Source of the DNA: Rhododendron vialii
Taxonomy: Eukaryota > Streptophyta > Magnoliopsida > Ericales > Ericaceae
Direction of reading: 5' to 3'
Assembly (NCBI RefSeq): GCF_030253575.1
Contig: NC_080567.1
Coordinates: 17,301,001 to 17,365,000, forward strand
Length of the DNA: 64,000 nucleotides
In this document: positions 8,234 through 64,000 of the stretch, piece after piece
Numbering within the stretch: the stretch's first letter is position 1
Layout of the letters: every line of letters starts with the position of its first letter
The notes under the pieces: model-generated
Database searches by the model: none
The model's input: only the letters and a program-made list of their open reading frames with translations
Told to the model about the DNA's origin: nothing
Program-made: the position numbers and the translations under genes

Positions 8234-9343
8234 ATGGCTCAACGTATTTCACCTCCGGGTCCAGAAAATTTTACCCTTGGGTTGGAGGGCTATGGGTCTA
8301 TCGGCCTTGAGCCTCGTCCCACGGCTCGGACGGTTCCCCATGTGGCCCGGCAGCTAACTTTTCCGCCAACCGAGTTGGATTTAGCCTTAGCCGAACAGAA
8401 GCGTCAGGCGGCGGTTATTGCCATGCTACAACAACGGCTGGAGGAACGGGACGGAGGGGTGACTACAACTCCCGAGCTCGGACACCAAGCCGAGCCTAGT
8501 CAGCCGAACAAACATCGCAAACGAAGCAGACCTTCTCATCCAGCCCAAACAGCCGAACCCGTAGTATCCAAGCAGCAAACTGTATTTGAACGTCTTGACA
8601 AAGGAGATCCAAGACCTCGTTTGGCAAGCGTTATTCGTACCGAGAACTCACGATCCTCGGCTACGGGCTCCACTGCTGGCACCAATAAAGGGGGTGCATT
8701 AGCTCGAGCACAATTTCGTTCCGAGCGACAGATGAATCCAAGAAGTGGGAAAAGGCCCATGGATTTAAATAATCCACCTCGGCGCGCACGAACCAGCAGC
8801 AACAGGGAATATTCGGTTCGATCACGACACGACTCTGAACGCCATGAAGAAAGGCGTTCGGTTAACTCTGGCAGTCGCCACCGAACGGACAGCAAAGGAA
8901 ATCATTCGGAACACGATAATACGATCGTTTTGTACGATCAGTTCACGGGCTTACCAACCGTATACCAACCCGTCAACCCAGGTTTTCAGACTCGCCATGC
9001 TCGCTTGATGGGATCGAGAGTAACGGTGCACGAGCCTTCGGTTTCAGCCACTCGGCAGCTGAAGGGGAAAGAGGAGCACGGCCGGCATCATCGACGTGAA
9101 CGGAGAAAAACTCCTGAACCGCCAGCGAAACTTCCTCTCCCTATTGTCATGCCAACTCCAGTTCAAGAAGATAATTCGAAGCTCGGGAAGGCAAAAGCTT
9201 CCCCCTTCGTGGACTCAATTCAACAGGAGCGGCCCCCGGACAGGTTTGTCATGCCGAAGCTTAAAACGTTACGAGGCAAAGGAGGACGCAGTCGCGTTCG
9301 TTTGTCGCTTTCGACAGACTATGAGCCTCCACAACTTTTCTGA
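8234..9343 (+). pseudogene. gag, N-terminal part (frameshifted)
   Basis: Opens with MAQRISPPGPENF at the first ATG after the primer-binding site. The 5' two thirds is a hydrophilic, Arg/Ser/Pro-rich region with a short coiled coil (LALAEQKRQAAVIAMLQQRL). The conserved capsid-like domain begins near DRFVMPKLK at about 9240. There the frame is lost in the A-run at 9259-9265, and the homologous reading continues one frame over. The residues after that point, up to the stop at 9343, are therefore out-of-frame noise. Gag forms the virus-like particle that packages element RNA. Confidence 0.8.
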
Positions 9344-10949
9344 CGCTCTTATGTGTAAGATCTTCCCACTCACTCTCAGCGAGCCGATCATGTTGTGGTA
9401 CAACCAGTTGAAACCCAAATCCATCTCTTGCTTCAACGAGCTGGAGTTGGAATTCAGTAAATGCTTTGTAACCAGCAACATACAACTGAAGACACTATCT
9501 ATGCTGGTGAACATGCGGAGAGGTGCCAGTGAAACCTTACGGCTTTATACCAAGCGATATTGGGAAGTCTACAATCTTATTCCTGACTGTGATCAAGGAG
9601 TTGCGGCGGAATCTTTTATGAACGGCTTGGATCCGACCTCGGCCATGTTCCGTGACCTGTCACGTAATCCACCTAAGACGATGGAAGAGCTCATGGCCAT
9701 AATCGAAAAAGATTGCGTCCATGAAGAAGCAATGGCCGAGCGAAATCCGCCAAAGGCTTCGGAGCCCCCAAAAACCTCTGGACCGAAGAAGCAAGTTTCA
9801 AACGTTCGCCAGGGGCAAGGGGGCCAAGGCGGCTCAAGCCAACCAACCACAAAGCCGACCAACGGCGGCCGACCTCCGCAACACCCTCGGCCACAACCTT
9901 GGCAGCAAACCAAACGAGAGCCACGGCCAGACGAGTACATTGCTGAGCATACGGTATTCACTGAACCAATTTACAAGCTCCTTAACATCATTGGCAAATT
10001 GCCATTTTTTGTTTGGCCAACTGTACTCTTAGGCACCGTCGGGAGCGGACCAGGGATGTGCACGTACCATAAGGAACGTGGCCATTATACTACGCAATGC
10101 CCACCTTTTAAAAGGTATCTAGAGGAACTGGCAGCGGCTGGGCATCTAAATCAATGGATCGACGTTCGGCGGAACCCGCTCCCGCCGCCTCCTCCTCTCA
10201 TCGGCAATCTCGTAAGTGTAATACAGGGATTGGTTTCCGAAGGGAGGGTGGCCGAGCTTCATTTAGAAATTGACAGGGCCGTCTTCTCTCAATCCGTCTG
10301 CAACATCGGCACTTCTGGCAAACGAAAGTGGGAGGATCCGAGCTTCAACAGCGATATTACTTTTTCATCCGACGACTTGAAAGGGGTCCAACTCCCTCAT
10401 ACAGATGCCCTCGTCGTTACTATTGCTATTGAAAAATCAACCGTACAGCGAGTATTGATAGACCAGGGAAGCTCGGCGGACATGATGTTTTACTCAACAT
10501 TCCTGAGCCTCGGATTATCTCCCGCTCAGCTTTGGACAGCATCAACTCCACTTGTAAGCTTCACTGGAGCCCCGGTTTGGCCGCTCGGCCTGGCCACTCT
10601 TCCTGTGCGGGCGGGATCACGTGTTCTCCAAATTGAATTCGTGGTGGTCGCTTCTCCGAGTCCATACAACGTCATCCTCGGCCGAACCTGGTTGCATGAA
10701 ATGAAGGCAGTCGCCTCCACCTATCACCAGGTGGTCAAATTTATTGGATGGAATGGGCGTCAGGAGAGCCTACGAGGAGACCAAATCCAATCGAAGAGAT
10801 GCTACATCAGCACTGTAACGACCAAACAGAGCTGTATGGAAGTACAATGTGTGGCCGCCACTCCCACTCCATTGATTGAAGATATTGGAGTGCCGGCCGA
10901 ACAAAGGTCGGCTGAAGAACTAATACGTTTTTCCATTCCGGGGGGCTAA
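9096..10949 (+). pseudogene. gag C-terminal part, zinc knuckle and aspartic protease
   Basis: The true homologous stretch starts near 9263, in frame 3. It holds the retrotransposon gag domain (FRQTMSLHNFSDALMCK..., LTLSEPIMLWYNQL). Near 10057 is a CX2HX4HX4C knuckle, read as CTYHKERGHYTTQC. Around 10455 is a retropepsin-like active site, LIDQGSSADMM (D-x-G-S-S). Protease would cut the Gag-Pol polyprotein. The frame ends at TAA 10947-10949, but the same frame continues with pol-like sequence on the far side. Homology does not end there, so the TAA is a premature stop, not a gene end. Confidence 0.85.
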
Positions 10950-11174
10950 GGAAGATATTTTTTGATTGGGAATTCATTAAGCGTAACCCAGCGTGAGGAG
11001 ATGTACGACTTTTTGATACGAAACATAGAAGTTTTTGCTTGGACTCCACGAGACATGCCAGGCGTAGACCCATCGTTCGCGATGCATTCATTAAATGTCG
11101 ATCCAAATAGGCGGCCGGTGGTGCAGTAAGTTCGACGCTCATCAGCCGCTCATACCGAAGCTGTAATAACCGAA

Positions 11175-13280
11175 GTGAATCAACTGTTGGACGCTGGCGT
11201 CATTCGGGAAGTGCTATATCCCACCTGGCTTGCCAATCCAGTGGTTGTCCCGAAGAAAAATGGGAAATTAAGGGTATGCATCGATTACACGAACCTCAAT
11301 GATGCCTGTCCTATGGATCGATTTCCCCTTCCTCGAATCGAGCAAATGGTAGATGCAACAGCAGGATGCGAACGTTTGAGCTTTATGGATGCGTACCGGG
11401 GCTATCACCAAATAGCCTTGGACCCGGAAGATCAAGAGAAGACGGCCTTTATTTCTCCTCGGGGCACTTACTGCTGCAAGGTCGTGCCGTTCGGCCTGAA
11501 GAATGCTGGTGCGACCTTCCAACGCTCAATCACAAAGATGTTTCCTGGAATGCTCGGCAAAAAAGTAGAAGCTTATATCGATGATCTGGTTTGCAGAAGT
11601 AGGTTCGCTCAGGACCACCTTCGGGACTTAGGAGAAGTCTTTGCTATTTTGAAACAACGAAAGCTTCGTCTTAATGCCGAAAAATGTGCGTTTGGCGTAA
11701 GCTCGGGAAAATTTCTTGGTTACATGGTACGCCACCGAGGGATCGAGGCTGATCCAGCACAAATCCTGGCCGTACAAAATCTCCGAGCTCCCACTACTAT
11801 CAAAGAAGTGCAACGACTTACAGGGATGGTGGCTGCTTTGAACCGATTCATTCGACGTTCGGGAGACCTTTGCCGTCCATTTTTCCGAGCGATCACCACC
11901 AGCCGACACAGATTCATATGGACCGAAGAATGTGAGCAGGCTTTGAAGTCTTTGAAGCAATACCTGTCTCACGCTCCCTTGCTCGTCAAGCCCCTACCCG
12001 ATGAAGATCTATATCTTTACCTTGCTGTTTCCGACCACGCAACGAGTGCGGTTCTTGTTCGAAGAGAGGGGATGGAGCATCAACCGATCTTCTATTCCAG
12101 TAAAACGATGACGGATTCTCAGACGAGGTATCTGCCTATGGAAAAGTTGGCATTGGCTCTCGTTTCTGCTAAAACGAGCCTCTTGCCTTACTTTCAATCC
12201 CATAGGATTGTGGTCCTCACTGAGTTTCCTCTCAAAGCTGTTCTTCGGAAGACGGATACGTCGAGCCGAATCCTGAAGTTCTCTCAAGATTTGGCCAACT
12301 TCAACATCCAATTCGAGCCTCGGACAGCAATCAGAGGGCAGGTCCTGGCCGACTTCTTTGCCGAACTCACTCCCGGCTTACAAGACGAGGCCAATGCCTT
12401 GGCAACAGCCGCTGAAGAAGCTCGGATTCAGGAAGCAGAGGTTTTGGAAGGGCCGTCCAACTGCCCTGCCGAACCACTACGTGCTCGATATTCCCTCGGA
12501 CGCAAGAAACCCAAACGACAATGGAAGCTCTTCTCCGGCGACGCTTGGCGACTGACAGTCGATGGAGCTTCTAATGTTCATGGAGCTAGTGCAGGCATCG
12601 TCCTTGTGTCACCCGACGGGACTGTTCATGAAAGCGTGGTTTCGATTGGGTACACGGCGACGAACAATGAGGCGGAATATGAAGCTCTAATTGCAGGCCT
12701 CCAACTTGCTCTTCGGCTGGATGCGGATTCGGTTCATGTCTTTTGTGACTCTCAGCTCATTGTGGGGCATTTAAACGATGATTATCAAGCCAAAGATCAA
12801 CGTATGAATGCTTACGTGAGCCACGTCTTAGATTTGTTCGGAAGATTTGGACGCGTAGAAGTGGAATGGATTGCTCGGGAGCATAAGGCCCATGCTCACG
12901 CCCTTGCAGGTCTTGCTTCAGTCTACAATACCTCGGGCAGTCGCACTATCACCTTCAACGAGGTCCCCAAACCAAGCTTCGAAAAGCCATGTGAACAGGT
13001 TATGGCCATCACCCTCGGTCCAAGCCAGCTGGATTCTGTGGTTGTTTACCTGAAGAACCAGATCCTACCGACGAACAAGCGCGAAGCGTACAAAATCCGT
13101 TGCCGAGCTGCCAACTTTTTCCTGGGACCGAACGACAATCTCTACCGGCGAACTTTCACTGGCCCCGATCTGCGTGTCGTCCACGACGATCTTGTGCCAA
13201 CCGTTCTGGAGGAACTTCATTCGGGTAGCTGTGGGGCTCACTCAGGAGGACGGTCCCTTGCACAGCGTGCCCTGACATAA
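11175..13280 (+). pseudogene. pol: reverse transcriptase, RNase H and second (archaeal-type) RNase H
   Basis: Same frame as the protease segment, separated from it by stops at 10947 and 11127. Counting from 11175, the RT catalytic residues are D72 (FMDAYRGYHQ) and Y134-I-D136-D137 (YIDD). FPLPRIEQMV, FGLKNAGATFQ and FLGYMV are also present. A first RNase H follows (YLAVSDHATSAVLV...), then a second one from LTVDGASN (about 12556), with EAEYEALI and VFCDSQLIV. The final catalytic Asp of the second RNase H is replaced: the usual ADALA reads AHALA at about 12893-12910. The ORF closes at TAA 13278-13280 in the middle of the integrase zinc-binding region, so this is also a premature stop. Confidence 0.9.
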
Positions 13281-13298
13281 GGCTATTGGTGGCCGAAG

Positions 13299-14255
13299 AT
13301 GGTCAAGCAATCCGAAGAATACGTGAAGCTCTGTGTTCGGTGTCAAAAGCAAGCATCTCTCATCCACCAGCCTGCATTTCCCCTTAAAATGATCACCAGT
13401 CCGTGGCCGTTCGCGGTTTGGGCTTTTGACATAGTTGGCAAAATGCCGAAGGCGCCTGGAGGATTTAAGTATATGCTCACTGCCACAGATTTGTTCACCA
13501 AGTGGGTAGAAGCTTCCCCCATGATCAAGACCACCGCCGGGGACGTGGAGCGCTTTATTTGGAAGCACATCATCTCAAGGTTCGGCGTACCGTACGCCAT
13601 CCTTTCTGATAATGGCTCCCAATTTGTTGTCTCTGCTCTCAAAGCTTTTTATGCGAAGCGCCACATCACCATCCATAATTCCTCGGTGGCCTATCCACAA
13701 GGTAATGGCCAAGCCGAAGCATCAAACAAGACTATCACTCGGGGGCTGAAGCGCCGTTTGGACCGGAAGCTCGGTAAATGGGTGGAAGAGCTTCCACACG
13801 TCTTGTGGGCCTATCGAACAACACCTCGGCGGTCCACCGGCCGTAGTCCGTTTGCTATGGCCTACGGTATGGAGGCTGTCCTCCCTTTATCTACTATGAT
13901 CCCTACGGCCCGCACGGAGAATTTTAACCCTGTAGATAACAATGCTCTTGTGGGCGCCGAGTTAGATTTAGCCGAAGAACTACGTGATAATGCTAACCTT
14001 CGGCACGCCACGTACCAGCAAGAAGTTGCAAGGGGCTACAACCGCAATGTTCGTGCTCGACCATTCAACGTCGGGGACTTAGTCCTTCGGATGGTTACCG
14101 AAGCGTCAAAGTTGACCAAGTTGAAGGATCCCTATGAAGGCCCTTACCGAGTGGTAGAGAAGATCGGGCATGGTGTCTACAAGCTTGCTGAGATGGATGG
14201 AACGCCAATCGCTAATCCATGGAATGCCCAAAAGCTTAGGAAATTCCATGGCTAG
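13299..14255 (+). pseudogene. pol: integrase
   Basis: Same frame as the RT segment and separated from it only by the TAA at 13278. The HHCC zinc-binding domain spans that stop, with CVRCQKQA at 13332-13355. The catalytic triad is intact, counting from 13299: D44 (AFDIVG), D104 (LSDNGSQF) and E140 (GQAEASNKT), which gives the D,D35E spacing. The C-terminal GPY/F-type motif (YEGPYRVVEKIGHGVYKL) is present and no chromodomain follows. Integrase inserts the cDNA into host DNA. The natural stop is TAG 14253-14255. Confidence 0.88.
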
Positions 14256-34561: not shown

Positions 34562-37500
34562 CACGCAATAAACACAGTTTCACGGGCACCAAAAAAGGAA
34601 CGTCGTATGCCACATGTCCTAAATTGTGGTACGGTAGGAGTAGGCTTCTAACAGAATTCGAACTCACTTTTCCAAGAGACAAACAACCAATTGAACTATT
34701 GTTTTCCAAGTTATTTATGCAAAGCACGTTTCTAAGAGCATAGCATGCAATTATTCAGTTTATTATATTCGATTTTCTGAAGAGCATATTATGCATAGTA
34801 TCACCATTTTGGAACAAAGTCGTGTCGTACCATATTTCAGAAAGTACGTACGAAAGCATAATTTGTTTGGGTATTTGCGTTTCCTGATAGCACTAGCTTG
34901 TAATTTACTAAACTAACCAAAAGTAACCAAACTATTACTGTTTTCAACTAAGCTACAATTCTAGCACCTCTTTCTCGTGTGAGGTTTATTTATGCAGATT
35001 TTCGCAATTTACTTGCAGTTTGAGGACGTGGTTTACAAAGCGAGGTTGGAGCCAAAAGGATTCTGCTGTGGTGCAACATCAAGCTCTAAAGAGAAGACCA
35101 TATTAAATGGGCTGACGGGTATGGTTTGTCCAGGAGAGCTACTAGCAATGCTTGGCCCAACGGGGAGTGGAAAAACCACTCTCCTTACAGCCCTTGGAGG
35201 CCGACACACTGGAAAGCTGTCCGGAAAAATCACATACAACGGTCAGCCCTTTTCTGGTTCCATCAGACGGAGAACAGGATTTGTCGCGCAGCAGGATACC
35301 CTATACCCTCATCTTACTGTAACCGAAACTCTTCTATTCACTGCACTTCTAAGGCTACCCAATAGCATGGCCAATGATGAGAAAGTTGAGCACGTAGAGC
35401 GAGTTATCACTGAGTTGGGACTAACTCGGTGTCGGAACAGCATGATAGGAGGACCACTGGTTAGAGGGATATCAGGTGGGGAGAAGAAGAGGGTGAGTAT
35501 AGGCCAAGAACTGCTAATTAACCCAAGCTTACTATTGCTTGATGAACCCACCTCAGGTTTGGACTCAACCACAGCTCAACAGATACTGACCACAATCAAA
35601 CAGCTTGCTAATTGGGGTAGGACTGTGATCACTACCATTCACCAGCCCTCGAGCCGACTCTACCATATGTTTGATAAGTTAATATTGTTGTCAGAAGGAT
35701 GCCCCATCTACTATGGTCCTGCATCCACTGCTTTGGAGTACTTTTCCTCGATTGGTTTTTCTACATCCATCACAATCAATCCGGCTGACCTCTTACTCGA
35801 TCTTGCCAATGGTAATGTTCGATCACTCTTTGAATTTATAGGCAGAAAGCTCTTGTTTCTTTGTGTTTTCTCGAAAAAGTTGAGGAAATTAAAGGGGCCA
35901 TCTGTGCAGAGTGGAACCGACCTTTAGGCAGCAATTGTTCCAAGCTTTTTTTTCATCAACATGAGACACACATATGACCGGCCTAACTGAAAGTGGTTAC
36001 AACAATATCTTTATATTAAAGCATAACGGTAACCCAACAACAAATTTTTCCCAGTGTTCAGATTCGTGTACAACGGTGAAGTTAACGTCATCCGCAACTC
36101 TCACCGAGCATAATCTGATCCTGAAATCTGTAGCTGACGGAAACACAATGGCAAACACTGATATTACAATTGATAATGTATACAGTAGTCGGGGGGACCA
36201 TGTGCTAACGTATATTTTAGTATGAAAAGAGATTAGAAACCAAGTTACTGTAGGCTCATGAGAACTGTGATGAAATGACAGGAATTGGAGCTGACTACAA
36301 TCAATCAATCGAGCAAGGAGATAAAACGGAACAAGAGCGCAAGAGAGTGAGGGATGATCTAATCTCTGCCTATGACAAGAACATTTCTACGAGATTGAAA
36401 GCTGAATTATGTAGTTCGGATGTCAATAACACCACTTATACCCAACATGCATCCACAAGTAAGTTCCTCCCTTCTCACCATTGAGAAATCAGCACATTAG
36501 CTTCAAATATCTTCCCCTTCCCCTAATTTTTATAAGTTCTTGACAAGTCTCAAGGGTCTTCTGATTTTAAATGAAACAGGGAGCAATGCAAAGCCAGAGC
36601 AATGGTGCACAAGCTGGTGGCATCAATTCAATGTGCTACTTCTGAGAGGGCTGAGGGAGCGACGACATGCAACCTTTAACAAGCTAAGAATCATCCAAGT
36701 CATAAGTGTCGCATTTCTTGGCGGACTCCTGTGGTGGCAAACTCCGACATCACATATTGCAGATCGTGTAAGATTAATGAAAACATGTATACTGTATGAT
36801 TCTATCTATAGACCTAGAGAAAGAAAACGAAAAAAAAAAACAGAGGAAAGGTTACTTAGAAAACTAAAGATCCATTTTATCTTTGAAAACAGCCAAGGAA
36901 CAGTCAAAGTCATTGAAATAGAAAACCTTAATTCCTATAGATGCTAACCGAGGGTTTCGTCTTGACTGCAGACTGGCATGATTTTCTTCTTCTCTGTGTT
37001 CTGGGGATTCTACCCTCTACACAATGCTGTTTTCACATTTCCTACAGACAGAGCAATGCTAATCAAAGAACGTTCATCTGGAATGTACCGCCTCTCCTCC
37101 TACTTTTTAGCCAGGATTGTTGGAGACCTGCCACTGGAGCTCTCGTTGCCAACTGCATTTACCTTCATATTCTATTGGATGGGTGGGCTCAAACCCAATC
37201 CAGTCACTTTCATCCTTTTCCTCCTTGTAGTCCTTTTCAATGTTCTTGTTTCACAGGGTCTTGGCTTAGCCTTTGGTGCCATTCTCATGGACCCCAGGAG
37301 TGCCACTACTTTAGCCTCAGTTACAACCATGGTCTTCCTTATGGCTGGAGGGTACTATATTCAACATATCCCTCCTTTCATAATGTGGTTGAAGTACTTG
37401 AGCTATAATTACTATTGTTACAGGCTCCTTCTTGGGGTTCAGTACAATGAGGACGCTTATTATGAGTGTTCAAATGGAACCTACTGCCGGGTTGCAGATT

Positions 37501-37616
37501 TTCCTGCCATCAAGGCAGTGGGCCTGAATCATTTGTGGATAGATGTGTCCGCAATGGCCGTGATGTTGGTGGGTTATCGTTTTGTTGCTTATCTAGCCTT
37601 GTGCAAGGTGCGGTGA
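34402..37616 (+). CDS. ABCG14: ABCG14-like half-size ABC transporter (cytokinin exporter family), five exons, 638 aa
   Basis: Exons 34402-34515, 35019-35811, 36282-36458, 36580-36767 and 36972-37616 join in phase at GT-AG sites (1917 nt including the stop), the usual length for a plant ABCG half transporter. The nucleotide-binding domain has Walker [10 protein letters not shown] (about residues 84-92), a Q-loop region ([12 protein letters not shown]), signature [12 protein letters not shown] (near 189) and Walker [14 protein letters not shown] (D213, E214). Exons 4-5 carry the six-helix membrane domain, with [28 protein letters not shown] and [11 protein letters not shown] runs. Closest by memory to Arabidopsis ABCG14, which loads trans-zeatin cytokinins into the xylem at the plasma membrane as a dimer. 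Family membership is firm; orthology and substrate are inferred. Oddity: exon 1 ends directly against a (CT)n run, giving the unusual donor AAG|GTCTCT. Confidence 0.92.
34516..34558. repeat. (CT)n microsatellite at the first splice donor of the ABCG14-like gene
   Basis: About 20 CT units begin at the GT of intron 1, so the donor reads GTCTCTCTCT. Confidence 0.9.
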
Positions 37617-51874: not shown

Positions 51875-54115
51875 TTTAGAACGAGGTTTTATGCGCCTTG
51901 GCTTTTACCCTGTTGTGTTAGATTGAGGAAAACATAGATTGGCTTTAACTGTTGTGTAGTTTGAGCAAAATGAAGACGCTTTCTGGTGCAAAGGTGCATC
52001 CGACTATTCCATGTCTACAGAAAATCTGAAGAATCTTTTGTTACTTGTTACTACTTGTTGCTTTGTAAATAATCCTTCATTTCCTCTCTATAGTCGAACA
52101 GATTTGCTTTCTGATTCTGAGCTATGTCAATGTCATGTAGTAGTTTAACTTTATAGCCATCTACCTTCTCAATGAATGGCTAAGATTATGTTGTATAGTA
52201 GTTTAGTACATTTTTTAGTAATATACATACCTTTTGTTTGGAATCTTTCTTTTTATAGACATTCACCTCCCCAATGAACGGCTGAGATTAACTTCATCCA
52301 ATGGCCCACATTGTAGATGCATACAATATTGTCTCCTATAGCTATTTTAAAAGATAAAATAATAAACATAATATATTATTTTTTTCTTAGGCGGGTGAAT
52401 TAATATGATTTTAACATTTTAAAAACAAAAAACTACTATGACATTACAAAAATTTGGAAACTTGGGTAGGGCGGTTGCCCGGTCTCATCCACCCCTTAGT
52501 CCGGCAAATAGCCCCATACGGGGAAGATATAAACTAACAATGAAACACTCCAATATAGGAAAACTGTAGTCCCAATTCTCCCTCTATTTTTTGTCTGGTA
52601 TATTTTTTTGATATTTTTTACTTTTTTTAGTACTTTTGTCTTGACCTTTTGATTCATTTGTGTTGACGAGAGAAATAAAAAATGTATACAAATGTGGATC
52701 AAAGTTTAAAGAAGTTTATATACAAGAACAAAAATACTAAAAAAAATATATATATATATACTCTCTCCGTCCAATTTAAGTGTCTACTACAGTTCTGCGT
52801 ACCATTTTCAATGGCTTATATCTCTCAACATATATTATATTTTATATTTTTAAAATCATTATCTTATAGAAATAATTGAGATATCAAACAAGATCTATAT
52901 TGCATATTTTTAGCAATATACATTGAGAAATATAAGCAATTGAAAATAACATGCAGAACCATAGTGAACACTTAAATTCAGACAGAGGGAGGACTAGTTC
53001 TTTGGGTTTTTTTTGTCTTCAGTAAATTCTTTTTGACTTTTGGTCATAATTTTTTAATTTTTTGATACTCTCGTCCAGAGAGATGAATCCAAGAGAAATA
53101 ATGCAAATATAATAAGATTCAAAAAAAACCCGAACAAAATTAAAAAAAATATATATATATATAAGAAGAATGGGGCCATTTATTAAGTTTAGCTTAAGTT
53201 TATTCCTTGTAGGGGTAACAGAGGAAGCTTTTAGTTAAACTTCTACTCGAATTTGAGTTCAAAAATATCAGCAACCATTCTGGAACCGCATCCAATTTAC
53301 ATACTCAATCACACACACTCACATGCTTGTTTTGTAGCCCCCATGAATAATTATTTAGTGGTCTTAGAGTATCGCCACATGGTGCTCAACATCCACATCT
53401 ATTAAACCTTTTTGTAGAGTCAACACTAAGTATTGGGCGCATAAAAATGTGCTGTGAAGAACAGTGTTAGAGCACCACGTTACGATGCCTCAAGACTACT
53501 TAATTTTTTTTTGAAAATTGGTTGTGGTCCTCCGTCCCTAGACAAGTACCAAAACAAAGCCACGCACATAGTCACAGACAACTCGAAGATCCCGTTCCAC
53601 TTTCTCAAATAAGTACTTAAAAAATAAGGACCTGTTTTCAAGCTTATAAATAATGGGCTTAAAAAAATAATTTTTAAATTTTTTTTGCAGGGTTTGATAG
53701 ATCTCATCAAACAAGATCCATATTGCATATTTTTTATTTCAGTAAGCTTATTATTTTTAAGCTTAAAAATTACAAATAATGACTTATTTTTTAAAGGGGT
53801 AAACTGGAACACACCCGAAACACACCCGAAGTCTTGAAACATACCGTAACAAATTTCCGGATGACTTGGCAAAAAATGAAATACAAGTAAAAGCTTGTGG
53901 GTCAATGTGTTTAAAACTAAAACCTAACATGGAAAAATGATAAATAGTAGAACTAACTGGAGCTCTCTGCAGTGAGAAATTTTTGGGGGCAAATTGGGTA
54001 TAGTGCCACTCCACTCTCTCTCACACATTGCTCACATACAGGCACACTGCCGCACACACTCCCTCTCTCTCTTCTAGGGTTTTGCTCCCTGCGAGAGAAT
54101 CAAGGAAATAGGAAA
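51875..54115. other. Intergenic region between the CIR1-like gene and the left SWIB copy
   Basis: The first 300 bp or so is the likely 3' UTR of the CIR1-like gene. From about 52440 the sequence is the upstream part of the left tandem-duplication unit and aligns with 59035-60425. It includes a Stowaway MITE (52761-52991) that the right copy lacks. No coding exons. Confidence 0.55.
52761..52991. mobile_element. Stowaway-type MITE in the left duplication unit only
   Basis: Ends CTCTCTCCGTCC and GACAGAGGGAG form a Stowaway-type inverted repeat. AATTTAAGTGTCTACT is mirrored by AGTGAACACTTAAATT. A TA precedes the left end. The corresponding region of the right unit (59240-59320) does not contain it. 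Confidence 0.78.
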
Positions 54116-55202
54116 ATGGCATCGTCAACCAGGGTTTTCGCGAAGGGTTGCGGCTCTCTAATGGCGGCTGCTAGGCATTCCGCCGCCGCTGCTTCCTCCC
54201 AAGCCGGTGGCGCCGTGCCCAGCACGACGCGTTGTCCGGGCGGCATTCTGAAGCCGTCGCCGGTCTCTCCCTCTCTTCGTACATTTCTCGGTGTTTCTGA
54301 AGCATCACGCACTGACGTCATCAAAAAGGTCTGGCAGCCCATCAAGCTGATTAACAATCTCCAGGTATTCGTAGTTCATACTACACCATAGTGTGTTGTT
54401 TGATAGTCCTTTTTCCAGTTAGATGTCGTTCTTTCTACAGATGGTTTCTTATATCTGTAAATGGGTATTTGCACATGGATCTAGGGGTGATAAACAGCCA
54501 AGCAGTTGGTTGTTCAAGCTTGGATGGAAAAACTTCATGAGCTTTAAAAATACTGTGTTCAATGCTTAGTTTGGTTATGAGATGAGCTGATCTCGGACGG
54601 GCTTTAATCTACTGAACACGAGCTGATCTCGGGTAGCTTGGATTTTATATAACTTATAACCCAAACGAGCCAAGTAGTAGATTGTTTGAGCTTTGATTGA
54701 AAGCTTAAACGAGATTTTGAAAGATATTCAAGTTTGAATTGTTTACTTAACAAACCTATATTGAACGAGTTTTTAACGACCGATTACGAGCTCAAACTCA
54801 AGTAGCTTGATTTGTTTAGCAATTTTTACCTTTTTTTTTATACAGGACCGGCAAAGAAATTTTGAGTTCATGCCACGACGATTTATATGCAAGGGAAGTT
54901 TTCTTGATGCACAACGATCTATATGGAAGGGAAGTTTTCTTGATGCATTCCTGTTGAAAATGAAGAAGAAGAGAGATCCTCTTTCGAACAGGAAAATTTG
55001 GTCACGTAGATCTTCTATTACGCCGGAATTCGTTGATTCCACTGTACGGATTTACAATGGACAAACTTTTGTTCGTTGTAAGATCACTGAAGGAAAGGTT
55101 GGTCATAAACTTGGCGAGTTTGCTTTTACACGGAAACGAAGACCTTTGAGAACAGTTATTGGACAGGGAAGCAAAAAGGGGACTGGGAAGAAAAAGGGGT
55201 AA
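54116..55202 (+). CDS. RPS19: Mitochondrial ribosomal protein uS19 (RPS19), nuclear gene using a SWIB exon as presequence; two exons, 201 aa
   Basis: Exon 1 (54116-54364) is SWIB exon 1: 83 codons beginning [20 protein letters not shown], Arg/Ala/Ser-rich and typical of a mitochondrial presequence, ending in half a SWIB domain. Exon 2 (54846-55202) follows a T-rich acceptor (TTTTTTTTATACAG) and joins in phase 0. The rps19 reading starts with Met at residue 92. It contains the S19 signature (residues about 154-178, [22 protein letters not shown]) and a basic tail. Plant mitochondrial RPS19 is about 94 aa; here it is 110 because a 36-bp tandem duplication repeats KGSFLDA. RPS19 is a small-subunit protein at the head of the mitoribosome. 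Frame, signature and splice phase are all intact, so it looks functional; expression and import are inferred. The paralogous intron at 60666-63250 lacks it. Confidence 0.82.
54560..54825. repeat. Dispersed repeat in the left SWIB intron
   Basis: Same family as 25480-25870 and 60890-61280 (GAGCTGATCTCGG, TTTTTAACGACCGATTAC, CTCAAGTAGCTTGATTTGTT). It ends about 20 bp before the rps19 splice acceptor, and the right SWIB copy shares it, so it predates the duplication. Confidence 0.55.
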
Positions 55203-55295
55203 ACCAATGTAATCATGACATTGTAGGTGCTTACGAGGGGACGTATGTGTGGATCCATAAGCAAGTGGTGGCATGGGTGCACACCTTCATAAGAT
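54830..55295. other. Insert unique to the left unit: rps19 and short flanks
   Basis: The left and right introns align up to TTTGTTTAGCAAT (54810-54829 / 61270-61283) and again from TATGTTTG.TTTGATAAG (55296 / 61407). Between these points the left copy has about 465 bp holding rps19. The right copy has about 125 bp of unrelated sequence. This delimits the transferred mitochondrial segment to within a few tens of bases. Confidence 0.7.
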
Positions 55296-57407
55296 ATGTT
55301 TGTTTTGATAAGTGTATGGATTCAGATAAAACATTTCTTTTGTGGTTTAATAAAAAACTTTAGTTGGGTGCTAGTGATTACTGCTTTAGCAATAAATTGT
55401 ATGGGGTTTGTATTTTTAAACTGATATACTCAAAGTAGGTTTGCTCTTTGCCCTAGTATATTGTGATTCACTGTTTTTTGCCTCATTTAAACTGATGTGA
55501 AGCTGATCTGTGTTAGCAAACATTGATATTATTTTTGGTCTGTGTCTCTGTGTATGCATTGTTGGAACGTTCAAGTGTTTTCTTTATGATGCAAATGAGG
55601 TGAAGCTCTGCACTTTTTGCACAATAATTAGCGGAAGGACTATGGAAGTTTTGCTGGACCAATCAATCTCCAAACTTGTGATATAACATTATCTTGAGGG
55701 ATATGGCATTAGTAATCCTCTCACCAGTCATTAGAAATACCAATCCTCTCATCATTGGCCCACCAGTCAAACACGACCTTGAGAGACACAGAAGCTTGCT
55801 TGAGTTTGTGGAAAATGGTGACCGAAAGTCACATAAAGGGGGAGGGGTTGTACAACATCTATGAAACATGTGAGTAGGATAATGCCCATTATTGAATGAG
55901 ATATGTATGTTTTACGAGGCTTATGAGCAAGTGCTGTGAAAAACAGAACCGGCAGTGTTATTGTTTGACAATGGATCCCCGCGTCAATCTCACCAAGTGA
56001 TGAAAAAGAGAGAAATGTTACAAATAAACGGTGACTTTGGGAGGGGCATTTATAGTCTGCATTCTCTGCATCCTTTATTACGTGATAGTCTCCTTATTCC
56101 TTGATATTCTCCTACGTCCCTACCTACAACAGGCTAACAGCAATAACCTTGCTTCATGGTTTAGCTACTCTGTCGCGTAGTACGATTTGGTTGGCAAGGA
56201 TTTTATGAATTGTTCTGCAATTCCGTCGTGGAATGAGGAGGTTTGGTGGTTAGAAGCATATGTGCTTCTTCTTTTTTTTGAATTAGTTATCTTTTACTTC
56301 TTGGGAAAGAAATGGGGGAGTATTGCACAGCGATTCATTCTATCATTTCTTTCCCAGGGCTACTCATCATACCCCTTAGGTTAACACTAACTGCGTCTGC
56401 AAGTGAGGGAGATCTGCAATTCGCTAATTTGGGTTCAGGTGGACCTCTGGGATGTGGTGGTAAGTTTGGAATTGTCAAGTCAATGAATCACTGGTATAAG
56501 CATCTCCAACCCATCTCCAAAACTCCAAAATGGAGAATGGATGTTACATATTGAGGGGAGATTTTGTAATTTATCTCCTCTTTTCTTCACTTTCAGATGT
56601 TAACTTTTGTGATAGTGATGATATTGTCATGCATGAATGAGTCAGCTGGAAATGCAAACTAGAAGCCCAGGGTTAGACTACCTTGTTGGGCTATTACGGG
56701 GCATTGAACTCATATCTGATGGCTTAAGGAAGTTTCATCTTTTGTGACCAAGCATAGGTTTCTCAGCCCTTTCATTCACTAACCATCTGTTTATGTCAAA
56801 GTAAAATATTTCGTACTATAAAGTATTTTCAGCAGTTTGAATGTTTGGTTAAATGTAAAATGCTAATACAGTAATTAGTTGGACGTGTTTATTTTAATAT
56901 TTCTACTGATTTAATGTAGTATCTTGAAGTACTGATAGTTTGTGTCGTATCTTGTGGGGCTCTTTGATTTGTGCTGATTTGGCTTGAAATCTTTCCTGTG
57001 CTCTAATGTTAGTTCTTTCTTTCGTGTGTTCTGATATTAGTTCTTTCTTTGAAAATGTCCACACACACAAGTTCAGTTACAGAGGGGTTACTGAATATTG
57101 CAAATATTCAAGAAGCTTTCACCGAGATTCATGATTCCCCTATTTTTCTAACACTTGTTTTGAACTTGTTTAATGCTATTTGCTTTCTGAAAACATAGTG
57201 ATTATGATAGATTCAATTAGCTTTTGTGGTGGTGATTGGATTATAGGTTTATGCTCATTTGTTGCTTGGCTTTAGGATGAATTGGCCGGGAAGGAAACCG
57301 TTAGATATCCTTTGTCAGACTTTGTACAACACTTAAAAAAGTGTTGTTGCTACTCTACTTGGGTTAGAAACTCTCTTGTTTTTCGCCCATTTCTGTTTTC
57401 TTTGCAG
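55203..57407. other. rps19 3' flank and remainder of the left SWIB intron
   Basis: AT-rich and colinear with 61420-63250 of the right copy. The rps19 polyadenylation site should lie in the first few hundred bases. AATAAA-like strings such as TTTAATAAAAAAC occur near 55347. No other gene. Confidence 0.5.
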
Positions 57408-57530
57408 AATCCTCAAAACGAGGAGGAGATCTTTGTGACGAGAAGCTGAAGACACTTTTTGATGGTAAAAAACAAAGTCGGGTTTTTGGAGTTTGCAAAA
57501 CTGTTGAATCCACACTTCATTAAACCTTAA
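57408..57530 (+). pseudogene. Degenerate SWIB exon 2 of the left copy
   Basis: Follows an intact acceptor (TTCTTTGCAG) and aligns with the functional exon at 63251. A T is missing in ATCTTTGTG (right copy ATCTTTTGTG, near 57432). The frame therefore shifts and meets TGA at 57447-57449. A further extra base in the GGTAAAAAACAAAG stretch (about 57466-57475) restores the old frame too late. Spliced to exon 1, it would give a truncated protein lacking the second half of the SWIB fold. SWIB function has been lost here, while exon 1 is kept by rps19. Confidence 0.85.
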
Positions 57531-60425
57531 TCGTGCTCCTCCTGGACAAAGGGGATTCAAATGGACTTCACTTTTTTGTTGTTAGTTATGGCTGTCCATG
57601 TTTGAGTCCGTGGACATGAATTTGGTTCAGATGCTTTAGTATAATTCATCTACTTGAAAATTGACTTGCATGGCTTGTCAGAGTGAATCCTAGCTAGGAC
57701 TTTCGCTCTCTCCGGATATGTTTATATAGGTCAAAATGGATGATATGTTTTGTTTGTCATTTTGGCACAAAACTCAAGTTCACTTAAAAGGCTTTAGGTA
57801 GCAACTACTTGCCAGCATTGCTCTAATTCTCTGATTGTGGACTTCCAGAAAAGCAGTTCGTCAAATATATGAAGACATGGCCTTTCAGAATACGGTTCTG
57901 AACAAGCTGAGTTGAGCAGTGGGTTGTTCAATCTTTGACATGAAAACCTTACAATCTTGAAAGATGTATTCAAATTTGCTTGTTAGGTCTAATACGAGTT
58001 TAATATATTAACTAGTCATACACGGATCTAGCTTTGAGTAGATAGGCGACCTAATTAGCTCTCATGGAATGATGGTCCTGTTATCACATATTTTGGGTAC
58101 TGTATGTTTGATTCAATCCTATGTCAGTAAAGCTAAGGGGACGGACCACCACCATACCGATGGGGTACCGACGGGCACGCAGGGCTTACTCCGGGACCTG
58201 CACGGATGATCCGAGCTGTTAAATAATTTAAAAAAAAAAATTGAGCGGGCCTATGAAAATCAACTCAATCCAATATGTATAGGTGTTCGATCCAATGTTT
58301 CATTTTTTCATAAATCCTGGCTTTAAATTATATGTAGCTCAAGGTTGTGAATACCGTTCCATACCGGCCGGTACGCATCGGTTTTGTGTGAAAACTGTGC
58401 TCTAGCCCTACAATACCGTCCCGGCCTCAATATTGGGTCTTACCAGCTGGCAAGGGCAATTCCGGACAATATCGGGCAAGATGGTGTTACCAGCAATTTC
58501 GGCCCTGTATTTTGCAAAGTTGGGCAGAGAACTGAAAAAAATGGGAAAATAGGAAAAGAAGAAAATCGAAGCAGGGAAAATAACCAGAGAACGGAAAAAA
58601 TGGTTGATATGTGTGTGAAGTCTTCTTCTATCGATCTGTGTGTGAAGTCTTCTTCCATCTTTAGATTTGCACGCCTCTTGAACCTCTGGTCGATCTGTGC
58701 AAGAAGTCTTCTTTCAAAGTTTTAAACTAGGATTGATTCGATTGAACAACCAACTAATTGGCTCATTCAGCTTGTTCATCACCTCTAGTCCCTTATGCCA
58801 AGGTAATTTGCCCGAGCAATGTGGCGGGAGAAGTATCAGCGTCTCCACAAACGTTAGTCTGTAGGAGCATCTCCAGCCTCCACTCGCTTTTGAATCAGAA
58901 CTAAAGTTTTAGAGTAAAAATCTTTTACAACTCACTCCAATTTCTTGCTCAAACTTCTACCTGATTAATGAAGCTTTTTATCCAAATTTAAGGGTAGCTT
59001 AAGGTTTTTTATTTTTTTTGATATCAAGAGGTAGGAGAATTACATTCAAAAATTTACAATAACAAGACACTATATCATTCATGTGAGGCCCGTGTTAATT
59101 ACATCAAGCTCAATACTCTTTAACGGGTAACCCCAATAGGAGAAAGACAACAACTAACAATGAAACATTCCAAATAGGGGAGAATTTTAGCCTTATTCTT
59201 CCTACCTGTTTTGTCTATTATTTTTTTCAGTATTTTTTAAATGTGGACTGAAGTTGAAAAAGGTTTATATAAGACAACAACAATACCAGTTGTTTGGTAC
59301 TATTTTTTCAGTTGTTTGGTATCTTTCATCTTTTGCAAACTTTTTATCGCTTTTGGTCATTTTGTTTTACAGTTTAGACAACTCTCTTCAAGACGAACGA
59401 TTATCAGAAAAAATTAGCGTGAATCTATCAAAATTTTTGAAAAGGTGAACAAAATTATCAAAAATATAGGAAGAATAGGGACATTTACTAAATTTAGCTT
59501 AAGTTTATTCATTGGAGTGGCATAACAGAGGAAGCTTTTAGCTAAATTTTCTCAAATTTGAGTTAAAAAGTTTCAGCAACCATGCTAGAACGACACTCAG
59601 TTTACACAGAAACTCACATGTTTTGTAGCCCCAACAAGCAATTATTTAGTAGTCATATGGCACTGTCATATGGTGCCCCAGCATCCTCGTATATTACACA
59701 TTCTTGTAGGGTCCATACATCGCTTGGTGCCCCCATCATCCTAGTCTATTACACATTCTTGTATGGTCCACACATTTAATATTTGCCCCATAAGATTGTG
59801 TAGTGCAGAATGATGTTTGGGAACCACTTGACAATGCCTCAAAGGCCATTGAGTAATTTTTCATGCAAATTGGAGAGCTGCTACTGGTAGAGCAGTGGGC
59901 GCACAGATAGCGCGTACGATGCGCTTTTGGGCCCATCTCGGGTCTAACAAAGATAATTGGAGCCGTTCATTTTGTTCAATATATTTTGTTTAAGGTCCCC
60001 GTAAAAAAAAAATCAACTCCATCTAACATCGATAAAGGCGTTTACGAAACGTCAATTGCTTCAGATTTTAGCCTAAATTGGGTGCGTTTATCAGTCCTTT
60101 CAAAAGGTATCAAAATAAAGTCACGCACAGAGAGTCACATTGGGTTTGGGGATGACTTCTTTTTTTTTTTTTTTTTTGGGGTAAATCAGCTTATTGGGGA
60201 TGACTTGGCAAAACATAAACAATAAAATCAAAGCTTGTGGGTCAATGTGTCAAAATTAAAACCGAAGTAGGAAAAATGACAAATAGAACTAATTGGAGCT
60301 CTCTGCGGTAAACCCAAAACGGAAACCCAAAACCCCTCCTCGAGTCACTTCACATTTATTCCCTCCGCTCTCTCTCACACATTGCTCACACACGCTCTTC
60401 TAGGGTTTTTGCTCGCTGCGAGAGA
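57531..60425. other. Spacer between the two SWIB units and upstream region of the right copy
   Basis: 57531-57990 finishes the left duplication unit. 57990-59035 is unique spacer with no recognised gene, including a TACCGTTCCATACCGGCCGG stretch near 58352. From about 59035 the right unit begins. 59930-60110 carries extra sequence not seen in the left copy. No coding exons before 60426. Confidence 0.5.
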
Positions 60426-63373
60426 ATGGCTTCGTCAACAAAGGGTTTCGCGAAGGGTTGCAGAGTTCTCATGGCGGCTGCTAAAACTTCCGCAGCCGCT
60501 GCTTCCGCCCAGAAGACCGGCGCCGCCGCGACACGTCCTCCGACCGGCATTCTGAAGCCGTTGCCGGTCTCACCCTCCCTTGGTGCGTTTCTCGGTGTTT
60601 CTGAAGCCTCTCGCACTGACGTCATCAAAAAGGTCTGGCAGCACATCAAGCTTAACAATCTCCAGGTATCCACTGGTCCATACTAGTATATCATTTTTTT
60701 TTGTTGATTGATTATCCTTTTTTCAGTTATAAGTTGTTCTTTGAACGGATGGTTTCCTATATCTGTGTGTATTTGGGCATTGATCTAGGGGTGATAAACA
60801 AACCGAGTAGTTGGTTGTTCAATCTTGGATTGTAAAACTTTTTTTTTGAACGGCAAAAAAAAAAAAAAAAAAAACCCTGTAACGATAGCTTGTTTATGAG
60901 AGGAGCCGATCACGGACGAGCTTTAGTTGACAGAACACGAGCTTATCTCGGGTAGCTTGGATTTTTTAGTAGATTGTTCGAGCTTGGTTTGAAGCTTAAC
61001 GAGTTTTAAAAAGAATAAGTTTGGTTTGTTTACTTGACAAACCTAATTTGATGAGTTTTTAACAACCGATTACCAATGTTTTAAAAGTCGCTAGACGCTA
61101 GTTGGACGGTCGGCCACCTTTTAACTATTAATCGGTGCATATGAATTAATATTCGGCGATTAATCGTTAGTCGACCTAATCAGATAGGCCCCGCCAGCGA
61201 TTAAACATCGATTAATTTCTTGTTTTAGAACACTGCCGATTACAAACTCAAACTCGAGTAGCTTGGTTTGTTTAGCAATCCTACGTAGATCCGTGAGCAA
61301 GGGGTGGCACGGTGTTGGGCTCACCCCTTCCTAGATTCGACCCTCATTCCTAAATATGTAATACATACAGATACGAGATATATTTACAAATAAGTGTATG
61401 TGTAGGTATATATGTTTGATTTGATAAGCATAAGTGTGAATGGATTCAAATTCAATTAAACATTTGTTTTGTGCTTTAATCAAAAACTTTAGTTGGGTGG
61501 TAGAGCTTTAGCAATAAATTGTATGGGTTATGTATTTTGAAACTGATATACTAAAAATAGGTTTGCCTTTTGTTCTAGTATTTTTTTTTGTTTCTCTGCC
61601 TTTTGCCCAATTTGAGCTTCTGCGAAGCTGATCTGCGCTAGCAAATAAATTGTGTGGGGTTATGTATTTTGAAACTGATATACTAAAAGTAAAAATAGGT
61701 TTACCTTTTGTACTTCTCTGCCTTTTGCCCCATTTGAGCTGCTGCTAAGCTGATCTGCGCTAGCAAATATCAATATCATTTTTGGTCTGTGTCTCTGTGT
61801 ATACATTCTTAGAACGTACATGTCTTTTCTTTATGATGCACATGAGGTGAACTTGGGGTATGTTTGATTAGGTTGGTTAGACATGGATTGGATTGCAAGT
61901 CCATAAACTCAATAATTAGCGGAAGAATTATGCAAGTTTCGTTGGACAACCAATCTTGTAAAACTTGTGATATAACATAATCTCGAGGGATGTTGTATTA
62001 CCATATTAGTAATCCTATCGCCATAGTCATGAGATTACCAATCCCCTCATTATTGGCCCACCAGTCGGACATGGCCATGAGCGATGGAGACGTTTACATA
62101 AGTTTGGGAAAAATGGTGACCATAAGTCTCATAAGGGGGGAAAGGTTGTACTACATCTATGAAACGAATGAGGAGGATAATGCCCATTACCATTTAACGA
62201 ATGCTTTATAATGTTATGAGGAGTGCTGTGAAGAACGGATCTGCAATCCTGTTGTTTGACAGTGGTACACCACATCAATCACACTGAGTGATGGAAAAGA
62301 GAGAAACACTACGAATAAAGGGCGACTTTGGGAGGGCTTCTATATTTATGCATTCTGCATCTGTTATTACTTATTACATGGGAGTCTCCTTATTCCATGA
62401 TATTCTCCTACGTGGACCTATGGCAGTAACTTTTGCTTCATTGGGTTAGCTACTCAGGCGTGTAGTACGATTTGGGTGGCTGAAGGGTTGTATGAATTGT
62501 TCTGGAATTCCAGCATAGAATGATTTTTGGTGATTAGAAGCATAAATGTGTTTTTGAATTAGTTATCTTTTACTTCTTGGCAAAGAAATGATAGGATGGA
62601 TAGCCCTGTGCTATACACCCCCTTTTCTTTCCAGGGTTACACATCATAGCCCTTGATGTTAACACTAACTATCGGTGAGGGAGATCTGCTATTCACTAAT
62701 TCAGGTGAACCTGGGGATGTGGTTGTAAGTTTGGGAATGGCCAGTCAATCAATCACTGGTGACTAGTATAAGGCAGAACTCAGATGTTAACTTTTGTCAT
62801 ACTAATGATGAGTCATCTGGATGTGCAAACTTGAAGCCCAGAATTAAACTATCTTGTAGGGCTATACAGGGCATCGAACTTATATCTGGTGGCTTGAGGA
62901 AGTTTCAACTATCGAGACCGAGTGTAGGTTTCTCAGCCTTTTCGTACACTATCCATCTGTCACACAAGTTCTTATACAGAGAGGTTGCTTTTAGCGAGAT
63001 TTTGTGAACATTTGTTTTGAACTAGTTTAATGCCTTTTGCTTTCTGAAGATGTAGGATTGATCATGACGATTCAATCAGCTTTTGCGGTGGTGATTGTAT
63101 GTTCATGCTTATTTGTTGCTTGGTTTAGGAAAAAATGGCCGGGAAACCGTTTAATATTCTTTGTTGAACTTATTTCAACACTCAGAAGTGTTATTTCTAC
63201 TCTACTTGGGTTAAACTCTACCTTGTTTTTCGCTCCTGTTTTCTTTGCAGAATCCTCAAAACAAGAGGGAGATCTTTTGTGACGAGAAGTTGAAGACGCT
63301 GTTCGATGGTAAAGATAAAGTAGGGTTTCTGGAGATTGCAAAACTGTTGAATCCGCACTTCATTAAGTCTTAG
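60426..63373 (+). CDS. SWIB/MDM2-domain protein, organelle-targeted type; two exons, 120 aa, intact
   Basis: Exon 1 60426-60665 (80 codons) and exon 2 63251-63373 (40 codons plus TAG) join in phase 0 across a 2.6-kb GT-AG intron. Residues 1-37 (MASSTKGFAKGCRVLMAAAK..) are Ala/Ser/Arg/Lys-rich with no acidic residues, as expected of a mitochondrial or plastid transit peptide. Residues about 38-118 form a SWIB domain: [56 protein letters not shown] and KVGFLEIAKLLNPHF. Plant SWIB proteins of this size act with chromatin remodellers or in organelle nucleoids. Which applies here cannot be read from the sequence. It is the intact paralogue of the left copy, whose exon 1 now serves rps19. Confidence 0.92.
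60666..63250 (+). other. Intron of the intact SWIB gene
   Basis: AT-rich, with an A-run at 60855-60876 and the dispersed repeat at about 60890-61280. A short local duplication (about 61505-61620 and 61640-61770) contains GGTTTGCCTTTTGT, CTGATCTGCGCTAGCAAAT and TATGTATTTTGAAACTGATA. No rps19 and no other gene. Confidence 0.65.
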
Positions 63374-64000
63374 TCATGCTCCTCCCGGAGTAACGGGATT
63401 CAAATGAACTTCTCTTTTTGTTAGTTATGGTTGTCCATGTTTGAGGCCGTGGTCATGAATTTGGTTCAGATGATCTACTAGGAAAAATGACTTTTATGGC
63501 TTGTCAAAGTGAATCGTATGACTTTTGCTCTCTCCAGTTATGTTTATATAGGTCAAATTGAATGTTTTGTTTGTCATTGTGGCACGAAACTCAAATTCAC
63601 TTAAAAGGCTTTATGTAGCCTAACTACTTGCCAGCATTGCCCTAATTCTCTGATTGTGGACTTTCAGAAAAGCAATTCTTCAAATATATGAAGATAGAGC
63701 CTTTCAGAATACGGTTCTGAACGAGCTGGAGTTGAGCAGTGGGTTGTTCAGTCTTTGACATGAAAACCTTACCATCTTGATAGATATGTTCAAATTTGCT
63801 TGTAGCTTGAGCTGAGTTGAGCAGTGGGTTTGTTCACGAGTTTAATTGAGCGGAGCAGGAGCTCAAAGTAGCCTGAAATTTAGTATCATATAATATAGAT
63901 AAGAGGTGTTTAGAGCTGAGTACTCAGTTATACAAACTCGGACTTAATAAGTGGATTACTAAAAAGTGTGCTAAAGATGTAGATTTTATTAACATTCAAC
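63374..64000. other. 3' flank of the intact SWIB gene
   Basis: The likely 3' UTR is followed by sequence colinear with 57531-57990 of the left unit up to about 63800. No gene recognised. Confidence 0.5.

Follow-up and report, generated by a model that had tools for sequence, protein, structure and literature searches.

Grasses offer one of the closest described cases of a ribosomal-protein gene moved into a nuclear host intron: rps14 lies within an intron of sdh2, and the first exon of the host is spliced on to it for targeting, as described in PMC1543663. The SDH2-RPS14 precursor keeps part of the host protein and is then processed (Figueroa 2000, as cited in PMC1543663). For rps19 itself, many of the nuclear Brassicaceae proteins among the matches listed in our searches carry PF00076 (RRM) together with PF00203. 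The mitochondrial uS19m chain 6xyw_Br, which we take to be from Arabidopsis, is 212 aa long with S19 at residues 133-206. Cusack and Wolfe are said to have described in 2007 a fusion of rpl32 with SOD in mangrove and poplar, in which the fusion came first and a later duplication separated the two functions.

Here we analyzed 64,000 nucleotides of the Rhododendron vialii genome (C11:17301001-17365000, hereafter the window), in which rps19 is found inside the intron of a SWIB gene. Based on the arrangement of this locus and of its relatives, a functional transfer of rps19 from mitochondrion to nucleus in Rhododendron, by way of capture in a SWIB intron, is highly probable. In the literature searched, mostly outside subscription journals, we found no report of a SWIB-rps19 pairing or of this transfer among the entries listed.

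A mitochondrial-type rps19 within a SWIB intron

The original prediction had described an intact uS19 frame in the intron of a SWIB copy that resembles mitochondrial RPS19, and both parts of this description held. The rps19 exon (54846..55202, plus strand) is open throughout and encodes 118 aa of a mitochondrial-type uS19 followed by a stop codon. Residues 24-99 of the product match positions 1-79 of the 81 positions of the Pfam profile PF00203, Ribosomal_S19 (E 1.4e-25, 89.4 bits, with the Pfam cut-off at 27 bits). Among the best 60 of 153 PDB matches, the mitochondrial chain 6xyw_Br ranked first (2.6e-31), ahead of bacterial S19 (2.4e-17 at best) and plastid S19 (1.8e-10). The exon is located on a nuclear contig (C11, 39.5 Mb, one of 13 contigs of a 532.6-Mb genome) and within a nuclear SWIB gene; it is a mitochondrial-type gene now residing in the nuclear genome. 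Inside the exon, a 36-bp tandem duplication (54879..54950, plus strand; 31 of 36 bases identical) repeats KGSFLDA in the S19 N-terminal motif, and the same repeat is seen at the protein level in all three species that carry the fusion, i.e., the window species and the orthologues of R. molle and R. williamsianum. At the 3' end there is another short near-repeat, GGGAAGCAAAAAGGGG / GGGAAGAAAAAGGGG.

SWIB exon 1 of this gene, which we call copy A (54116..54364, plus strand), encodes 83 aa, consisting of a presequence-like N-terminus and the first half of the SWIB domain, and ends on a complete codon. The intron between this exon and the rps19 exon (54365..54845, plus strand) is predicted from the sequence and its splice sites and runs from GT to AG, with the donor TCCAG/GTATTC and the acceptor TTTTTTTTTATACAG/GAC (the slash marks the splice site); splicing would join exon 1 to rps19 in phase 0. 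A strong polypyrimidine-AG acceptor in phase 0 had been proposed at this place. Sites and phase are as described, but the tract is not unique: with 14 pyrimidines in 16 positions it shares second place with the original SWIB acceptor and a further site among 172 AG sites scored across the whole copy A intron, and one site has 15. The gene model of R. williamsianum joins 7 codons further in than 54846, at 54867, likewise in frame, so that the acceptor at 54846 is provisional.

The segment that contains rps19 was delimited by alignment of copy A with a tandem twin, copy B. From 54824 to about 55242 (plus strand), copy A has ~419 bp that are missing from copy B, where the sequence continues uninterrupted near 61279/61280; both edges are uncertain by several bases. 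This segment is made up of a T-rich acceptor tract, rps19 preceded by a short stretch of mitochondrial 5' flank, and a tail of ~40 bp. The T-rich tract is not seen in the twin in the copy A/B alignment. In one of the alignments, ATACAGGACCG around the acceptor lies opposite ACGTAGATCCG in copy B, and 6 of 11 positions agree, so that the acceptor AG itself could predate the insert. Directly ahead of the native S19 start the frame reads RNFEF, which resembles RNSEF, the in-frame residues that precede mitochondrial rps19 in other sequences; therefore, some mitochondrial 5' flank appears to have moved along with rps19. Over 50 bp, the final codons of the insert together with its tail (55188-55237) are 92% identical to C5:38913290-38913339 on the minus strand. 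The same query found no further rps19 at that place, and the match is possibly filler DNA or a shared repeat. An AATAAA at 55349..55354 (plus strand), 147 nt past the rps19 stop, could tentatively be proposed as a poly(A) signal of copy A; the twin reads AATCAA.

SWIB exon 1 and the predicted destination of the precursor

Residues 46-83 of copy A exon 1 correspond to positions 1-37 of the 74 positions of the Pfam SWIB profile PF02201 (E 1.2e-7). As the original prediction had it, the fusion keeps half a SWIB domain ahead of RPS19. In this half, copy A has R55, T56 and P75 as well as one extra residue; at these places G, A and H, without an insertion, are common to copy B and Vaccinium. Half a SWIB fold is probably unable to adopt the SWIB structure. 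The R. molle fusion was modelled from a 25-row alignment, and the model (mean pLDDT 49.8) was set aside as too poor.

The first 40 residues of exon 1 contain 4 K/R and no D/E, with the first acidic residue at position 62, and the composition count of the exon gave 11 Ala and 7 Ser. The best hydrophobic moment over 18 residues of the N-terminus was equalled by 402 of 5000 shuffles and is not outstanding; therefore, amphipathicity alone is no evidence of targeting. Arabidopsis SWIB relatives act in organelle nucleoids, as described in PMC10707152 and PMC7209962, and SWIB5 is placed there in mitochondria. In PMC7209962, SWIB-6 is assigned to both mitochondria and plastids and SWIB-4 to plastids, to which the table of that paper adds M and its text the nucleus. 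Taken together, the composition of exon 1 and the organellar location of these relatives make it likely that the N-terminus is a mitochondrial presequence. That the precursor would be sent mainly to plastids, or to both organelles, is in our view a rather unlikely but real alternative. The short plant SWIB family does have plastid and dual-targeted members in SWIB-4 and SWIB-6 (PMC7209962), and a Ser/Ala-rich N-terminus fits either organelle. However, SWIB5 is mitochondrial, and the cargo is a mitochondrial-type S19, which is needed where mitochondrial rps19 is missing.

A tandem SWIB twin and decay of the captor

The tandem twin, copy B, occupies 60426-63373, 6.3 kb downstream of copy A; it is an intact SWIB gene whose intron lacks the rps19 insert. 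Copy B was located by tblastn with the R. simsii SWIB protein P0124 (Rhsim11G0036900): its exon 1 (60426..60665, plus strand) matches that protein at 79 of 80 residues, and its exon 2 (63251..63373, plus strand) is intact to the stop. Copies A and B can be aligned in head-to-tail order for several kb, and the alignment breaks at the rps19 exon, with one blastn block pairing 53859-54787 with 60198-61073. An upstream and 5' leader region (53859..54115, plus strand) is common to both copies and represents a duplicated promoter region. We compared divergence over 53859-57983 and 60198-63803. The Jukes-Cantor distance was 0.26 upstream (53859-54111) and 0.24 for the 5' intron together with the first middle block. 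The two blocks that follow gave 0.17 and 0.20, and the last exon with its 3' flank gave 0.11; the lower divergence toward the 3' side may reflect later local gene conversion. For exon 1, dS between the copies was 0.28, while dN was 0.28 in the presequence part and 0.05 in the SWIB half.

The twin shows no trace of an insert at the insertion site, and duplication therefore most likely preceded insertion; this order is the simplest one. Precise loss of the insert from copy B is a less probable alternative. The intron of copy B has an addition of its own, ~160 bp at 61066-61244 that are missing from copy A and are flanked by a direct repeat, CCGATTAC, which is single in copy A; this segment looks like a small mobile-element insertion. 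In the 30 kb of flanking DNA examined (20 kb to the right and 10 kb to the left), no further SWIB copies were found beyond one weak match (E 0.16). Across the genome, 20 SWIB-like matches were scored, four of them the exons in the window and the others at most 67% identical. Elsewhere in the window, 8234-14255 is an LTR-retrotransposon-like coding region, with Pfam reverse transcriptase and RNase H domains in 11175-13277, and 34992-37616 holds pieces of an ABC transporter gene (PF00005 in 34992-35924, PF01061 in 36978-37613).

The SWIB last exon of copy A (57408..57524, plus strand) has decayed. Compared with copy B it has a 1-nt deletion and a 1-nt insertion, i.e., two frameshifts, and it reads NPQNEEEIFVTRS before a stop after 13 codons. 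Because of these frameshifts and the early stop, copy A of the window species cannot encode a complete SWIB protein, and the twin carries SWIB. A complete SWIB domain is absent from copy A, with 37 of the 74 profile positions in exon 1 and a broken last exon. In R. griersonianum, a gene model (P0123, 106 aa) that is annotated as SWIB joins a near-identical exon 1 to a SWIB exon and ends at profile position 58 of 74.

The original prediction had drawn on grass sdh2-rps14, in which one gene yields two products by alternative splicing. Capture in an intron, in frame after the first exon, is what we find. The dual-product part of the analogy fails, because the captor has frameshifts in its last SWIB exon and SWIB is supplied by the intact gene next to it. 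It is accordingly very unlikely that the locus still makes both a SWIB protein and an RPS19 precursor by alternative splicing. In favor of such a dual product, copy A retains a recognizable last SWIB exon with its acceptor, and R. griersonianum P0123, apparently from the same locus, does connect exon 1 with a SWIB exon. Against this stand the broken exon in the window, the early end of the R. griersonianum model, and the departures of copy A exon 1 at R55, T56, P75 and the added residue, with copy B supplying SWIB.

The fusion in other rhododendrons and its conservation

Among related species, for which a search had been suggested, gene predictions of a SWIB-S19 fusion were found in R. molle (Rhmol11G0088900, 201 aa, 95% identity to the window fusion) and R. 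williamsianum (C3L33_21824, 194 aa, 93% identity), the acceptors of the two models differing by 7 codons. These two species were the only ones with both SWIB and S19 domains among the matches listed (best 120 of 148), and a second protein search again gave only those two Rhododendron rows (best 120 of 244).

Within the fusion, the S19 core (residues 97-201) is conserved relative to the rest. Compared with R. molle, 1 of 105 core residues differs as opposed to 9 of 96 elsewhere (Fisher p 0.007); for R. williamsianum the counts are 1 of 105 and 7 of 89 (p 0.025). We simulated neutral drift from the present exon with the indel and substitution rates of the copy A/B intron (43 indel events, 38 of them non-multiples of three, over 2002 aligned sites). 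The rps19 frame survived in ~0.7% of runs at a branch of 0.114 substitutions per site, and for a younger insert in ~4% at 0.073 and ~11% at 0.05. For an insert that dates back to the duplication, neutral survival of the frame thus appears unlikely.

The pairwise dN/dS of the rps19 exon against L008, the single mitochondrial DNA compared, was 0.76 over 81 codons and not clearly below 1; part of this value is due to edit-like sites and to two codons at which L008 differs from the remaining mitochondrial proteins in the alignment. L008 is a 53-kb contig (NZ_CADDZT010000059.1) in an assembly of Candidatus Frankia meridionalis and encodes a plant mitochondrial rps19 with an rps3-like start after it. 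The contig is apparently mitochondrial DNA of the host plant, presumably Coriaria, that contaminates a bacterial genome record.

A tree of 30 rows (31 were chosen and Aconitum was dropped), in which 14 of 27 inner branches are open and joined long branches were warned of, groups the three Rhododendron sequences in a single clade (100/99), whose stem is 0.30 and whose tips are 0-0.015. The long stem and short tips would be consistent with change followed by stasis.

Mitochondrial rps19 in Ericaceae and origin of the nuclear copy

Published gene lists assign 33 genes each to the mitogenomes of R. simsii and R. x pulchrum, with rps19 missing from both in Table 3 of PMC9532937, and for R. x pulchrum also from Table 1 of that paper. 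These lists are annotations of two congeners, in which a missing entry does not prove that the gene was lost. For R. simsii, the paper on its mitogenome likewise reports 33 protein-coding genes, its main section giving no full list of them (PMC7995824). In the same Table 3, rps19 is present in all three other Ericaceae, namely Monotropa hypopitys, Arctostaphylos glauca and Vaccinium macrocarpon (PMC9532937), and the mitogenome of Vaccinium bracteatum also includes it (PMC11593731).

A protein-level search of the host genome for rps19 gave five matches, of which only 54846-55202 is full-length; the other four are broken by stops or 36 residues long. At the DNA level there were 17 other matches, all partial and covering at most 155 of 427 bases, two of them overlapping each other's place and one covering the tail only. 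All of these counts are lower bounds. Four pattern matches in viral contigs were unrelated to mitochondrial RPS19.

Among the matches listed, the rps19 product was most similar to Chimaphila and Moneses (82% identity over 76% of the query). The 30-row tree did not place the rps19 donor inside Ericaceae, so an origin in this family rests on the highest identity and on the host. The signs of RNA editing, which bear on whether the transfer was mediated by RNA or DNA, are mixed. Two sites are edit-like, with T here and C in other plant mitochondrial sequences or local NUMTs: the codon for F (KTP to QTF; CCT in L003) and the codon for L (PSRT to PLRT; TCG in L004). Other codons look non-edited, i.e., ACG here where the local NUMTs L002 and L005 have TCG, and the proline codon CCT at RDP.

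A chance, non-functional NUMT that landed in an intron, stayed open by luck and was picked up by gene predictors is very unlikely. The many other rps19-like fragments (4 protein-level and 17 DNA-level), the dN/dS against mitochondrial DNA and the survival of a young neutral insert would suit it. Against it, the two congeners' mitogenome lists without rps19 lead one to expect a nuclear copy, and 54846-55202 is the only full-length one that the searches of the host genome gave; moreover, all three species retain the fused frame, and the S19 core is conserved relative to the rest of the fusion.

Discussion

The reading put forward in the original prediction, that rps19 was captured by a SWIB gene, is supported by the fusion predicted in two congeners, by two congener mitogenome lists without rps19, by the low neutral survival of the frame in an old insert and by the twin without an insert. 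We propose the following course of events. A short SWIB gene was duplicated in tandem, and later ~419 bp with mitochondrial rps19 would have been inserted into the only intron of one of the two copies; the insert either brought or acquired its pyrimidine-tract acceptor. Splicing would then join exon 1 to rps19 in phase 0, as suggested by the sites and by the predicted models of two species. The SWIB promoter, 5' leader and presequence would now serve RPS19, the captor copy having become an RPS19 gene. By analogy with SDH2-RPS14, the precursor would be imported, cleaved after the presequence and perhaps cleaved again before S19. Mitochondrial rps19 would have been lost, as the lists of two congeners suggest, and the captor SWIB last exon has decayed, presumably because the other twin keeps SWIB.

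If the second cleavage did not occur, the half-SWIB extension and the duplicated S19 N-terminal motif would stay on Rhododendron uS19m as a stable lineage-specific addition, an outcome to which we give little weight. In that case, the retained half-SWIB could perhaps be a nucleic-acid-binding counterpart of the RRM extension of Brassicaceae.

An empty twin, a filled twin, a broken host exon and a new acceptor within 10 kb form a compact record of an organelle gene turning nuclear, and illustrate one way in which duplication of the host gene can offset the cost of capture. Rhododendron contains more than 1000 species (PMC7995824), and its mitogenomes can be scored for rps19 across this large genus. 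Sampling of relatives could date the duplication, the insertion, the mitochondrial loss and the decay of the host exon.

The capture of rps19 by SWIB is a new case of a well-documented evolutionary process. As in grass sdh2-rps14, a ribosomal-protein gene lies in a host intron, in frame after the first exon, as judged here from the sequence, and part of the host protein, half a SWIB domain, precedes the ribosomal protein in the predicted precursor. In contrast to sdh2-rps14, the cargo is rps19, the host is SWIB and the lineage is Rhododendron; the host function is kept by a tandem twin instead of by alternative splicing, and the host exon of the captor is broken. With the rpl32-SOD fusion the locus shares an organelle ribosomal-protein gene within a host gene and a duplication that ends with the two functions apart; in that fusion the duplication came afterward, whereas in Rhododendron it most likely came first. 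Brassicaceae rps19 has the same cargo and likewise carries a foreign domain ahead of S19; however, the added domain there is an RRM, while in Rhododendron it is only half a SWIB fold.
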